41,425 nt of DNA from Synergistaceae bacterium. Its GTDB lineage: Bacteria > Synergistota > Synergistia > Synergistales > Aminobacteriaceae. The stretch lies in assembly GCA_018436595.1 (NCBI GenBank), contig JAHDLC010000028.1, positions 1 through 41,425 of the forward strand, read 5' to 3'. This document shows, in pieces, positions 238 to 7,093 of the stretch. Position 1 is the first letter of the stretch, and every line of letters starts with the position of its first letter. The translations under genes were made by a program, and so were the position numbers. The notes below the pieces were generated by a model. It worked only from the letters and a program-made list of their open reading frames with translations. It was not told the origin of the DNA and made no database searches.

Positions 238-520
238 TTTTAATGAAGCCGTGAAGCAGAATAAAGCAATCGTCATGGTGAAGAAAATAAAAAAATCCGG
301 GAAGCATCTCCGCCGAACTGTATTCTCAGCTCCCACAACCCTGCAAATTTACCGCTTCGGATTGCTGCAGCATGCGGGCGTTGAAAAAGATCCCGAACTG
401 CTCAAGAAGGTCAATTGCCCGCATGGCTTTTCCCTGGTGTCCGGGAGGAAGTTTTCTCAAAAATTCTTCTACCGGTCTTTTACCGTTCTCATTTACGTAG
501 AAGAGTACTCTCCATCGCAT
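238..520 (-). pseudogene. Decayed HigB/Gp49-like toxin gene, two frameshifts, truncated by IS
   Basis: Reading from the ATG at 520, the protein starts MRWRVLFYVNENGKRPVEEF and continues LRKLPPGHQGKAMRAIDLLE. This is the N-terminus of the phage-derived Gp49-like (HigB/RelE superfamily) toxin family. That frame stops at 326, but the family's core continues in a second frame (GKFAGLWELRIQFGGDASRIF). It then continues in a third frame as FYFLHHDDCFILLHGFIKT. The first shift lies near 380-390 and the second at the T-rich run near 275-290. The 3' end meets the IS boundary at about 238, and the partner antitoxin gene, which normally follows in this family, is missing. An alternative GTG start at 538 exists; AAAGGGG is better placed for the ATG at 520. 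Confidence 0.75.
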
Positions 521-550
521 TGAGAAAACCCCTTTCACTCACTTAGGCGT

Positions 551-3605: not shown

Positions 3606-3884
3606 CTACTTCCTGCGGGAATATACCTGTGAACGATGTCCCACATCGACGGCAATGATAAGCATCTCCCCGTCCCTGATCTCCGCCAGCAAACGGTAAT
3701 CACCTATCCGGTAGCGCCACAATCCCCGAAGAGGTCCCGTCAACGCATTTCCTGAAGCGCGGGGGTCCGGGCAATTTCGGAGATTCCGGTTGATGTAGCT
3801 GAAAATCAGGTGCTGTGTCTCCCTATCGAATTTTTTGATCTTCTTCGCAGCCTCAGAGGAAATTTCCACGGAGTAGCAACTCAT
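3606..3884 (-). CDS. relE: RelE/ParE-family mRNA interferase toxin
   Basis: This basic 92-residue toxin starts at the ATG at 3884, with GGAGGAG seven bases upstream. The start overlaps the antitoxin stop as ATGA. Family signatures are the N-terminal SVEISSEAAKKIKKFDRETQ, the central NALTGPLRGLWRYRIGDYRL and the C-terminal IIAVDVGHRSQVY. Basic residues in the RYRIGDYR and GHR stretches correspond to the RNA-binding and catalytic surface of RelE proteins, which cleave mRNA at the ribosome. An upstream in-frame start (MRFF) would run further into the antitoxin gene and is less likely. The gene appears intact. Confidence 0.85.
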   Translation of the reverse strand: MSCYSVEISSEAAKKIKKFDRETQHLIFSYINRNLRNCPDPRASGNALTGPLRGLWRYRIGDYRLLAEIRDGEMLIIAVDVGHRSQVYSRRK

Positions 3885-4120
3885 AACTCCTCCTCGGAAA
3901 AACCGCACTCCTTCACAAGATCCTCAAACGGCACCGTCTTCCGCCTGCTTTTCAGCCAGGCTGTATAGACTTTCAGGTCGTAGGCGTCCTCGATCTTCTC
4001 AAGAATCGATTCCCGGGCAAACTGGGCAAGGGACATCCTTCGCTCCCTGGCGTATTCTTCCGCCGCCAGGCGTTCCTCCGGGGAAAGCCGTATGGACAGA
4101 GTTTTCTCAAGTGTAGCCAT
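3881..4120 (-). CDS. relB: RelB-like antitoxin with ribbon-helix-helix N-terminus
   Basis: This 79-residue protein starts at the ATG at 4120, after GGAGGGGAAATC. The N-terminus (MATLEKTLSIRLSPEERLAA) is a typical ribbon-helix-helix DNA-binding beta strand and helix. The C-terminal half (FEDLVKECGFSEEEL) is the acidic toxin-binding tail. It precedes and overlaps the toxin gene by 4 nt, which keeps antitoxin synthesis ahead of toxin. Family knowledge predicts that the complex represses its own promoter. A longer frame upstream (MLTVQGF) lacks a ribosome-binding site. Confidence 0.85.
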   Translation of the reverse strand: MATLEKTLSIRLSPEERLAAEEYARERRMSLAQFARESILEKIEDAYDLKVYTAWLKSRRKTVPFEDLVKECGFSEEEL

Positions 4121-4146
4121 GATTTCCCCTCCTCTCTTTGTATTGC

Positions 4147-4174
4147 ATCGTAGCACAAAACCCTGGACAGTCAA
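4147..4174 (-). promoter_or_regulatory. Promoter of the relBE-like operon
   Basis: TTGACT (4169-4174) and TACGAT (4147-4152) with a 16-bp spacer on the minus strand, about 27 bp upstream of the antitoxin start codon. Confidence 0.55.
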
Positions 4175-4199
4175 CAATGAAACCAGTGAAAGAGTTCAA

Positions 4200-4946: not shown

Positions 4947-4981
4947 ACAAAAAAGTGAGGGGCTCGCTTTCCCCCTCACTT
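4947..4981 (-). terminator. Rho-independent terminator of the sigma-factor cassette
   Basis: A perfect 10-bp stem (AAGTGAGGGG at 4953-4962 with CCCCTCACTT at 4972-4981) is followed on the minus strand by a T run read from 4954 down to 4949. It lies 12 bp after the sigma-factor stop codon. Confidence 0.8.
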
Positions 4982-4993
4982 CGTCCTTCTTCT

Positions 4994-5470
4994 CTATTGA
5001 ATCAGCGGTGCAAGGCGCTTCCGTACCAGCCGCAGCCGGGCGCTCACCGCCTGTTGTGTTATGCCGAACCTCTCGGCTGCCTCTTTCTGGGAAAATCCTC
5101 CCGCCAGCAGAATCACAAGTTCCCGATCCTCTCCGCCAAGACACTCCTCAACCGCCCGGTCCGGAAATGACGGCTCCACAAAAACTGAAGGCTCCTCAGG
5201 CGTTCCTTCCATGTCTTCCAGGGGAACACATTGCTGCCGCCATTCCCTCCGGGCTGCGGCTCTCACCCTCGCGGGAAGCCGGTTCTTCAGAAAAAGGGGC
5301 AGCCGTTCCGGATCCCCGCACCTCGGGATCAGCTCCAGCAGGGCAAGGTATCCTTCCTGCACCAGGTCGTCGAAATCCGCTCCCCTCCCGGCGTATCTCC
5401 GGGCCGTGGCCGTCACGAGGGGCCGGAATCGCCGGAGCTCGGACTCCATATCATATTTCGGAAACCCCAT
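4994..5470 (-). CDS. Small sigma-70-family RNA polymerase sigma factor
   Basis: The 158-residue protein contains only sigma regions 2 and 4. Region 2 spans roughly residues 8-75 and includes the core-binding DFDDLVQEGYLALLE. Region 4 spans roughly 110-155 and includes the helix-turn-helix FSQKEAAERFGITQQAVSAR. An acidic linker joins them, as in ECF-like and phage-type sigma factors. No anti-sigma gene is adjacent. It starts at an ATG after GGAGGGATGA, 11 bp after the stop of the M15-type peptidase gene, and is followed by a strong terminator. It is therefore the last gene of the cassette that also encodes DUF1659, DUF2922 and YvrJ proteins. In Bacillus subtilis yvrJ also neighbours an alternative sigma factor gene (yvrI/sigO). 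The target promoters are unknown. Confidence 0.85.
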   Translation of the reverse strand: MGFPKYDMESELRRFRPLVTATARRYAGRGADFDDLVQEGYLALLELIPRCGDPERLPLFLKNRLPARVRAAARREWRQQCVPLEDMEGTPEEPSVFVEPSFPDRAVEECLGGEDRELVILLAGGFSQKEAAERFGITQQAVSARLRLVRKRLAPLIQ

Positions 5471-5481
5471 TCATCCCTCCA

Positions 5482-5838
5482 TTAGGCTATCCCAAGATGC
5501 ATAAAATTCCGCCGGCCGTAGGGAATCACCTGGGTGAAACCTGCCCGCCGGGCAAAGACCTCCACCGCCGACTGTTCATTAAACGGGACCAGCACATCCG
5601 CCGCCCGTCCCTCCAGATGGAGGCTCCGCGACGCACCCTTCACCCGCCTGTTGTGGGACGGGCACCGATATCCGCTGCTGATGACCACGGGTTTTCCCCA
5701 CTGGGCTCTCATGGACTCGAGCAGCTCCACCAGGAGAGGGCAAAGCCTCACGCAGTGGCAGCAGGGGCATTCGAATTCCCGGAGGCGGAAATGCTCCGCC
5801 ACGGGAAGGTCATTCAGTCGGGTTGTTTTTTCTGCCAT
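5482..5838 (-). CDS. M15-type D-Ala-D-Ala carboxypeptidase/endolysin-like peptidase
   Basis: This 118-residue protein carries the zinc-site pattern of peptidase M15A (Peptidase_M15_3). The motif SLHLEGRAAD supplies His74 and Asp81, and FMHLGI near the C-terminus supplies His114. The upstream SSGYRCPSHN (54-63) is also typical. An N-terminal FECPCCHC cluster is common in phage-borne members. There is no signal peptide, so export would need a holin-like partner, and the YvrJ peptide upstream is a candidate. Such enzymes cut peptidoglycan stem peptides. The ATG at 5838 follows AAGGTGGTGA; a longer in-frame extension runs into the repeat array and is not credible. Confidence 0.85.
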   Translation of the reverse strand: MAEKTTRLNDLPVAEHFRLREFECPCCHCVRLCPLLVELLESMRAQWGKPVVISSGYRCPSHNRRVKGASRSLHLEGRAADVLVPFNEQSAVEVFARRAGFTQVIPYGRRNFMHLGIA

Positions 5839-5880
5839 ACATTCACCACCTTTATTGAAAAACGGCTTCGTGCCGGGATT

Positions 5881-6052
5881 GTCGTCCTGAGCAAGGCGAA
5901 GGGCCTCGATTTTGCTTTTGTCTGTCGTCCTGAGCAAGGCGAAGGGCCTCGATTTTGCTTTTGTCTGTCGTCCTGAGCAAGGCGAAGGGCCTCGATTTTG
6001 CCTTTGTCTGTCGTCCTGAGTATCGCGAAGGACCTCGATTTTGACTCTGGAG
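5881..6052. repeat. Four 43-bp tandem repeats
   Basis: Units start at 5881, 5924, 5967 and 6010 with an exact 43-bp period. Each begins GTCGTCCTGAGCAAGGCGAA and then has GGGCCTCGATTTTG. The first two are identical, the third differs by one base, and the fourth is diverged (TATCGCGAAGGACC). There are no unique spacers, so this is not a CRISPR array. The array starts 42 bp upstream of the M15-type peptidase start, inside the cassette. Confidence 0.85.
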
Positions 6053-6310
6053 TACCTCAAGGGCGAGATCCTTCGGCCCAAATACCGGCCTCAGGATGAC
6101 AGACCAGAAGCGAGACCCCTCCCCTCCGGGGACGCGATCGGCCCAAATACCGGACTCGGGATGACAACCCTCTGTCCTCCTGAGCCCCGTGCCCCGATTT
6201 TTTGTCGTCCTGAGCAAGGCGAAGGACCTCGGGGTTGCCTTTAAAGGGCCTTTACCCCAGATTCTTCGGCCATGGATCAGGCCTCAGAATGACAGAACCA
6301 GATCTTTCCT
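6053..6310. repeat. Further dispersed repeat units between the yvrJ and M15 genes
   Basis: This gene-free stretch continues the repeat family: GGCGAGATCCTTCGG with CCTCAGGATGAC at about 6062-6100, ACTCGGGATGAC near 6164, and a GTCGTCCTGAGCAAGGCGAA unit at about 6205. The total gap between the YvrJ and M15-peptidase genes is about 484 bp, almost all of it repeats. Confidence 0.65.
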
Positions 6311-6322
6311 CGCCTTTACCCC

Positions 6323-6478
6323 TCAGGACGACAGCGTTCTCCCCGAAATTATGGCCGCATGCAAATCCCGGATTGCCAGGGACAGTTCCTCCAGGCGGCG
6401 TTCCATGCGTACCAGCAGAAAGGCCGCCACCGCCACGGAGAACCCGTTCTGCACCACCGTGGACATAAAATCCTCCAT
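6323..6478 (-). CDS. yvrJ: YvrJ-family small membrane peptide (holin-like)
   Basis: A 51-residue protein starts at the ATG at 6478, after GGAGGGAGCC. It begins MEDFMSTVVQNGFSVAVAAF and continues LLVRMERRLEELSLAIRDLH. This matches the YvrJ family: a short N-terminal segment, one transmembrane helix at about residues 10-25, then a charged amphipathic helix. The layout resembles BhlA/UviB-type holin-like peptides, although membrane permeabilisation by YvrJ itself is not established to my knowledge. It lies downstream of the DUF1659 and DUF2922 genes on the same strand. The last residues and stop codon run into a repeat unit, so its 3' end may have been altered by repeat insertion. Confidence 0.8.
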   Translation of the reverse strand: MEDFMSTVVQNGFSVAVAAFLLVRMERRLEELSLAIRDLHAAIISGRTLSS

Positions 6479-6548
6479 TGTTCGGCTCCCTCCTTCATAT
6501 CAGAAAACAGAGGGGAGAGGACTCCCCCTCCCCTGCCGTCCCTACCGG

Positions 6549-6749
6549 CTACAGAATCTCCGTCACCGTACGGTCCACAAGCTCCGCACCGGCGATGGAC
6601 ACCAGCGCCTGGTCGAAAATATCGTTGTCGATCACCGCATCCATGGCGGCCTCTGCCTCGGCGGCGGAGATGGTCTCCTTCGCGTAGTTCAGCGACACCA
6701 CGAAGGTCTTGCCGAGATCAGTCAGAAACTTCATCCGAAACGTCTTCAT
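6549..6749 (-). CDS. DUF2922-family protein
   Basis: The 66-residue protein begins MKTFRMKFLTDLGKTFVVSL and ends with a DRTVTEIL strand, the usual form of DUF2922 proteins (about 65-75 residues). In these families it nearly always sits beside a DUF1659 gene. The start has GGAGAG ten bases upstream. It lies 23 bp after the DUF1659 gene and 70 bp before the YvrJ gene. No signal peptide or membrane segment is visible. No biochemical function is known to me. Confidence 0.8.
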   Translation of the reverse strand: MKTFRMKFLTDLGKTFVVSLNYAKETISAAEAEAAMDAVIDNDIFDQALVSIAGAELVDRTVTEIL

Positions 6750-6772
6750 ATTCCGTCACTCTCCTTCCAGCC

Positions 6773-6994
6773 CTAGGCGGCTTCCACGGAATCGGTGCCC
6801 ACTTTCTCCACTGCCAGCACCGGATAATCAAAAAGGGAACCAAGGGCATCCGTCGCCGACTTCAGCGACGTGGCATCCACCGCCGGACGGATCCGGCTCA
6901 TGGTCACGGACCGGACGATCATCTTGCCGTCGCCGCCGGTGCCGGTATTGAGGCGAAGCACTACGGAACTCTTCAAAGGCGAATACACTGCCAT
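6773..6994 (-). CDS. DUF1659-family protein
   Basis: This 73-residue protein is the first gene of the minus-strand cassette. It reads MAVYSPLKSSVVLRLNTGTG, then KMIVRSVTMSRIRPAVDATS, with a C-terminal LFDYPVLAVEKVGTDSV. This is the DUF1659 pattern: a short beta-rich, soluble protein usually paired with DUF2922. GGGAGG lies nine bases upstream of the ATG, and a consensus-like promoter lies about 70 bp upstream. No function is known to me. Confidence 0.8.
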   Translation of the reverse strand: MAVYSPLKSSVVLRLNTGTGGDGKMIVRSVTMSRIRPAVDATSLKSATDALGSLFDYPVLAVEKVGTDSVEAA

Positions 6995-7064
6995 GTCAAT
7001 TCCTCCCGAATTTCAAGATAGCCAGGATTCTTCCCGGACATCTATAAGAGTGCCCTCGACCTCT

Positions 7065-7093
7065 AATATATACAAATAGACATCATATTTCAA
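7065..7093 (-). promoter_or_regulatory. Promoter of the DUF1659-DUF2922-YvrJ cassette
   Basis: TTGAAA (7088-7093) and TATATT (7065-7070) are separated by 17 bp on the minus strand. The leader to the DUF1659 start is about 65 nt. It looks like a housekeeping-type promoter rather than an unusual alternative-sigma site. Confidence 0.6.

Follow-up and report, generated by a model that had tools for sequence, protein, structure and literature searches.

We found that a five-gene cassette in the genome of a Synergistaceae bacterium belongs to a widespread, conserved operon that appears, from its sequence, to be coupled to its own sigma factor through a dedicated promoter. The cassette lies in a 41,425-nucleotide stretch of DNA (contig JAHDLC010000028.1 of assembly GCA_018436595.1; hereafter the window) and encodes, in the order of transcription from the minus strand, DUF1659, DUF2922 and YvrJ proteins (together, the triad), a leaderless wall hydrolase of the M15_3 peptidase family (M15) and a two-domain sigma-70 factor. 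Genome comparison shows a conserved gene order, a promoter matched to the sigma factor and hydrolase families that are interchangeable. We propose, with a probability of about 0.45, that the operon is a self-activating sigma switch, limited to a single operon, that drives an envelope-opening module of the holin/endolysin-like kind. The Pfam families DUF1659 (PF07872), DUF2922 (PF11148) and YvrJ (PF12841) carry no function, and our literature search found neither functional studies of DUF1659 or DUF2922 nor a published description of the operon, its promoter or the swapping of its hydrolase.

Results

The five genes reported in the initial annotation are all present on the minus strand, each protein scoring above the curated Pfam cut-offs, and the strong terminator that it placed at the 3′ end is real (Table 1). 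In a first set of relatives DUF2922 was found in 29 of 41 genomes, at 30 loci, with DUF1659 just upstream at 30/30, YvrJ at 27/30, M15 directly downstream at about 24 and the sigma gene coming next in about half. More broadly, 120 of 167 Synergistota genomes (72%), from 47 of 57 genera, encode DUF2922, mostly in a single copy. Among 70 Synergistota cassettes, counted with loci near contig ends taken as found, YvrJ was present in 59, M15 in 53 and an adjacent downstream sigma gene in 39, and in most of the sigma-bearing Synergistota both M15 and sigma come after YvrJ; the loci examined were partly the best-scoring ones, and gene starts were assigned automatically. The YvrJ/M15 and M15/sigma genes overlap in relatives, often by a few bases, and the genes flanking the cassette vary from genome to genome. 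The initial annotation had allowed that the sigma and M15 genes might be near the YvrJ cluster merely at random. This was not borne out: both Synergistota and Bacillota show the order DUF1659–DUF2922–YvrJ–hydrolase time and again, with a sigma gene as a repeated neighbour before or after it. Judged by these comparisons, the cassette is a conserved operon, its genes being grouped far beyond chance. M15 and sigma have been relocated together, away from the cassette, in two genomes (G031 and G040). In G031 (L036, 7736–7894) YvrJ diverges from its family right after the membrane helix and the M15–sigma pair lies about 40 kb away, which suggests that a rearrangement within YvrJ broke this operon in two.

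The motif TTTGT-N19-CACT occurs upstream of DUF1659 at 22 of 39 sigma-adjacent Synergistota loci and at 3 of the 31 others. When TTTGT...CACT was sought in all spacings from 10 to 29, it was found only at 19 (22 loci), apart from a single stray hit at 26, where 0.015 loci would be expected after shuffling. This promoter, at one spacing common to sigma-bearing Synergistota, is what the present analysis adds to the earlier picture. The three motif loci without an adjacent sigma are not exceptions, because a genome-wide search with an orthologue profile located the sigma elsewhere in those genomes: in G031 and G040 it is still paired with M15, and in G358, where the cassette is near a contig end, it lies at the end of another contig. 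Cassettes of one genus (g35) have a variant of the motif and no adjacent sigma, and here too the sigma is encoded elsewhere in the genome. Promoters of the TTGAC type (TTGACA/TATAAT, sigma-A) were found at 0 of 39 sigma-adjacent loci, in contrast to 14 of 31 sigma-less ones. Sigma-less members of three families (f1; genome G026 of f3; genus g31 of f4) each have a TTGACA promoter, suggesting that the sigma was lost repeatedly and the promoter replaced each time.

Whole-genome pattern scans found the long form of the motif only at cassettes, once per genome, or twice in the case of G002 with its two cassettes. Five long-motif sites came out of a 61-genome scan, all at cassettes. In the window's genome the cassette promoter is the sole site within 3 mismatches of the long pattern, and the same is true of related genomes. 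At the stringency used, the operon is therefore the only target evident from sequence, and we rejected a sigma factor with a large regulon, given that the long pattern is confined to cassettes in the scanned genomes. The coupling of promoter and sigma in the regulation of the cassette is well supported by these comparisons; the cassette sigma probably reads the TTTGTA-N18-CACTCT promoter and, being encoded by the last gene, would drive itself. The promoter first proposed for the window, at 7065–7093, fared differently: TTGAAA (7093) and TATATT (7065), separated by a 17-nt spacer, do fit the sigma-70 consensus, but TTGAAA is not conserved and the conserved element overlaps this site instead. 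TTGAAA-17-TATATT may supply basal transcription.

DUF1659 has no signal or membrane segment. AlphaFold2 models of DUF1659 and DUF2922 (predicted local distance difference test scores of 86 and 83) share a beta-beta-alpha-beta layout, and match PDB entries weakly (phi29 p6, Z 5.4, root-mean-square deviation 2.8, 60 aligned; phi29 p56, Z 4.5). Foldseek found no match at E < 0.001 and the PDB holds no sequence relatives of either protein; because the structural matches are weak, we draw no function from the fold. Alignment of the two families with hhalign (E 0.0016, probability 16%) and cross-hits between iterated models are suggestive, and only suggestive, of homology. DUF2922 also weakly matches a PHROG of unknown function. 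YvrJ consists of a single hydrophobic helix near the N terminus followed by a charged helix (motif LLvRMErrLeeL), in which R24 and E26, immediately C-terminal of the membrane helix, are invariant. The zinc motif of M15_3, SxHxxGxAxD, is kept in 53/53 relatives, and a hydrophobic N-terminal segment was seen in none of the M15 relatives examined. The sigma factor carries regions 2 and 4 on one 158-aa protein without region 1 or 3, a size like that of extracytoplasmic function sigma factors.

Outside Synergistota, DUF2922 was found in 103 of 199 sampled Bacillota genomes; DUF1659 precedes it at 60/60 loci, and 43 YvrJ genes were found. The gene after the triad encodes a wall hydrolase at 12 or more of 41 Bacillota loci (nine Amidase_2, plus Amidase_3, VanY and M15_3), and the gene before it a sigma factor at 8 of 37. 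Each of these hydrolase and sigma families has at most 1 member among 114 background neighbours, a bound taken from the most frequent families listed; Fisher values for the enrichment are indicative only, since the genomes are related. Plasmids of Geobacillus, Parageobacillus and Peribacillus also carry the triad, and there the next gene encodes an M15_4/VanY-type or Amidase_3 enzyme. In two plasmid versions (L060 and L062; Geobacillus and Peribacillus) a ComK-family gene lies directly upstream of the triad–hydrolase set and an integrase follows it, a hint that the plasmid versions are under a competence-like regulator. The catalytic domain begins within the first 3 to 17 residues in the plasmid hydrolases and within the first 2 to ~17 in the typed Bacillota ones. 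Because the hydrolases behind the triad and the regulators before it vary in Bacillota and on plasmids, the triad appears to be the constant part, and hydrolase and regulator interchangeable. On Paenibacillus and Halobacillus plasmids, orphan YvrJ genes have a sigma-70 gene and a helix-turn-helix gene as neighbours; in the latter case a lysozyme-family gene is found less than 1 kb away.

Other observations were made on these loci. Bacillota proteins of about 180 aa encoded directly after the triad (L119, 4220–4759; L146, L161 and L163) gave one marginal ComK match (E 0.0095), the rest having no Pfam family. The Bacillota genomes G217, G242 and G074 have 4–8 copies of DUF2922 each; because DUF3102 was matched by two genes upstream of Bacillota loci, on the same strand, the copies may have multiplied on mobile elements. 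In a phage contig from IMG/VR (L269, 4980–5162) a YvrJ gene stands after a portal-like gene and before one for a 103-aa membrane protein.

A terminator-like hairpin lies wholly within the DUF2922–YvrJ spacer at 27 of 51 Synergistota and 18 of 38 Bacillota loci, counted where this spacer is at least 30 nt long; the hairpin sequences are unrelated. The corresponding figures are ~10% and 7% for shuffled 3′ regions and 13/47 for ordinary same-strand spacers. Since the hairpin of the window is unremarkable against dinucleotide shuffles (z −1.36), the argument for attenuation is only moderate; with that strength, the hairpin predicts more DUF1659 and DUF2922 than YvrJ, hydrolase and sigma.

Other features of the window

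YvrJ and M15 genes touch or overlap in most other genera, and in the window a repeat-filled spacer separates them. The M15 open reading frame (ORF) extends 5′ into the repeats; relatives point to a start at 5838 (MAEKTT...), giving 118 aa. Dense dispersed repeats (GTCGTCCTGAGCAAnGCGAAGGACCTCG and its relatives) occur in many copies between 611 and 6294, including this spacer, some of them in tandem with a period of 43 nt (5880–6043). The neighbours of the cassette are lipoamide-dehydrogenase-like, ParE/DUF6290 and polysaccharide genes. Downstream lie a ParE-type toxin gene (PF05016, 3606–3908, minus strand) and its DUF6290 antitoxin-like partner (3881–4177, minus strand), probably a toxin–antitoxin pair. 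A short ORF at 326–538 (minus strand), which has no Pfam match, resembles a truncated RelE/HigB-type toxin and ends in repeats. An Rfam search gave no match.

Table 1. Features of the cassette in the window
Feature	Position	Strand	Basis
DUF1659 protein, 73 aa	6773–6994	−	Pfam PF07872, 4.4e-15, 55.7 bits (cut-off 24.1)
DUF2922 protein, 66 aa	6549–6749	−	Pfam PF11148, 1.9e-21, 76.2 bits (cut-off 25.5)
YvrJ, 51 aa	6323–6478	−	Pfam PF12841, 9.3e-13, 48.0 bits (cut-off 29.5)
Peptidase_M15_3, leaderless, 118 aa	5482–5838	−	Pfam PF08291, 3.4e-23; PHROG 894 endolysin, 2.9e-29
Two-domain sigma-70 factor, 158 aa	4994–5470	−	Sigma70_r2 9.5e-11, Sigma70_r4_2 1.5e-6, TIGR02937 4.9e-15
Conserved cassette promoter: TTTGTA (7076–7071), 18-nt spacer, CACTCT (7052–7047)	7047–7076	−	Spacing shared among relatives
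GC-rich hairpin in the DUF2922–YvrJ spacer, followed by a weak U tract; putative leaky terminator or attenuator	6511–6534	−	
YvrJ–M15 spacer with dispersed genomic repeats (GTCGTCCTGAGCAA..CGAAGGACCTCG)	5839–6322		Repeat families
Intrinsic terminator at operon end	4949–4981	−	Fold −19.4 kcal/mol, 11-bp stem and U tract, z = −2.8

Discussion

The switch that we propose could work as follows. A low basal level of sigma, arising possibly from the overlapping sigma-A-like promoter or from a signal acting on sigma, would start transcription at TTTGTA-N18-CACTCT, and sigma, encoded by the last gene, would feed back on its own promoter to give an all-or-none response. DUF1659 and DUF2922, small cytoplasmic proteins, would be made first and probably in excess owing to the hairpin, and YvrJ and the leaderless hydrolase by read-through past it. 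YvrJ, alone or with DUF1659 and DUF2922, might then perturb the membrane as a pore or gate it, so that the hydrolase gains access to peptidoglycan; the outcome would be a programmed opening of the envelope, either lysis or controlled protein release. Leaderless hydrolases of unrelated families encoded beside a small membrane peptide would fit endolysins that need a holin.

Precedents exist for several parts of this scheme. The clostridial tcdR-tcdE and uviAB loci place a small dedicated sigma beside its targets and a holin-like gene, with sigma-specific promoters (PMC4885068, PMC4031146). The cassette likewise places a small dedicated sigma next to the genes that it would control, among them one for a membrane protein that is small and holin-like, and in architecture the analogy with UviA/UviB drawn in the initial annotation is apt. 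Unlike those loci, it includes a wall hydrolase within the operon, along with the DUF1659–DUF2922 pair; the −35 element is TTTGTA rather than TTTACA (PMC4031146); and, in contrast to TcdR/BotR/UviA (group V) loci, neither the cassette nor its direct neighbours in the window include a toxin or bacteriocin gene. We do not claim membership in group V, because the −35 differs, a toxin gene is missing and YvrJ is not demonstrably BhlA-like; the cassette would nevertheless work like the TcdR/TcdE and UviA/UviB loci. Bacillus subtilis has a dedicated sigma, SigO-RsoA, that is encoded locally and transcribes yvrJ; its regulon comprises oxdC-yvrL, yvrJ and yvrI-yvrHa (PMC8103513). That sigma is split in two subunits and its target is oxalate decarboxylase, whereas the cassette sigma is one protein, and no hydrolase, DUF1659 or DUF2922 is reported in the SigO-RsoA regulon. 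The B. subtilis and plasmid cases provide independent support for a link between YvrJ and sigma factors. Phage holin–endolysin cassettes (SPbeta yomC-yomB/bhlA-yomA) also set a one-helix small membrane protein beside a leaderless peptidoglycan enzyme; the operon studied here differs in having its own sigma and promoter and no surrounding phage structural genes.

Several findings weigh against a self-activating envelope-opening switch. The cassette has no spanin-like gene, although the host phylum is, to our knowledge, diderm. Many cassettes, especially in Bacillota, have no adjacent hydrolase or sigma, and for this reason the invariant core is the DUF1659–DUF2922 pair. The strict motif is absent from 17 of 39 sigma-bearing loci, some of which have variants and some misassigned starts, and ordinary intergenic spacers have such hairpins only moderately less often. 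Profile comparison of YvrJ with BhlA/UviB-type proteins detected no homology, at hhalign probabilities of 5.3% and 17.4%; both sides are short and have one N-terminal helix. A bolder form of the proposal appears doubtful to us: DUF1659 and DUF2922, possibly homologous, would assemble on YvrJ as an undescribed, widespread, gated envelope-opening machine that uses whichever leaderless hydrolase is at hand; in Synergistota it would be fired by a private sigma that activates itself and controls no other operon.

An envelope maintenance or stress module would account for some of the same data. Its sigma would answer envelope stress, YvrJ would anchor a DUF1659/DUF2922 complex and the hydrolase would trim or repair the wall without lysis, the leaderless enzyme either leaving the cell by a non-classical route or acting on recycled muropeptides in the cytosol. 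Such a housekeeping-like function would suit a chromosomal, phylum-wide and mostly single-copy cassette (120/167 genomes); a lethal lysis cassette would hardly be expected to run from sigma-A-type promoters, as many sigma-less versions do, and B. subtilis YvrJ shares the SigO regulon with oxdC (PMC8103513). We consider this rather unlikely, as four unrelated hydrolase families are all leaderless where checked, which is the pattern of endolysins, and the operon has no anti-sigma or sensor gene. YvrJ itself is unlikely to be an anti-sigma, for many sigma-less cassettes keep it. It also seems improbable that the DUF1659–DUF2922 pair is what the operon serves to make, in excess, as a self-assembling particle or filament or as a bacteriocin-like protein, with YvrJ and the hydrolase releasing it in the manner of colicin or TcdE/TcdR-type operons. 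The pair is invariant and stands first, ahead of an often terminator-like hairpin, with YvrJ, hydrolase and sigma as variable parts, and clostridial toxin–sigma–holin loci follow the same logic (PMC4885068), but the pair has no secretion signal and no match to known bacteriocins or particles, and its structural matches, with phi29 p6 the best at Z 5.4, are weak.

Least probable by our estimate, and by a wide measure, is that the cassette remains from a phage or plasmid lysis module, domesticated and retained through drift or addiction but having no present role. M15_3 matches a phage endolysin family, DUF2922 has its weak PHROG match, Bacillus plasmid versions adjoin integrases and one viral contig carries YvrJ; against this stand the spread over 47 of 57 Synergistota genera, a promoter and sigma that co-evolve, and the catalytic motif kept in 53/53 relatives. 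The initial annotation had argued that the cassette is not an ordinary prophage remnant, and we concur: the flanks hold no phage structural module and differ between genomes, phage replication genes are likewise missing among the neighbours in the window, and YvrJ and DUF2922 had no matches among phage records. A known defence system was also rejected, as PADLOC gave only a weak match to MzaA through the shared sigma region. A study of domain frequencies had linked DUF1659 to sporulation (PMC2955703). Synergistota are not known to sporulate, so this is unlikely to be its whole role.

Three domains of unknown function thereby come to share a setting, an operon that also encodes a wall hydrolase and, in many cases, a dedicated regulator. 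At least one of them, DUF2922, is common, being encoded by about half of the Bacillota genomes sampled and by 72% of those from Synergistota. What DUF1659, DUF2922 and YvrJ do can be tested through two handles, the private promoter and the exchange of hydrolase families, and the arrangement of one sigma for one operon is a compact natural switch. If the cassette is indeed a lysis or release module, many common anaerobes would hold an unrecognised device for programmed envelope opening outside prophages.

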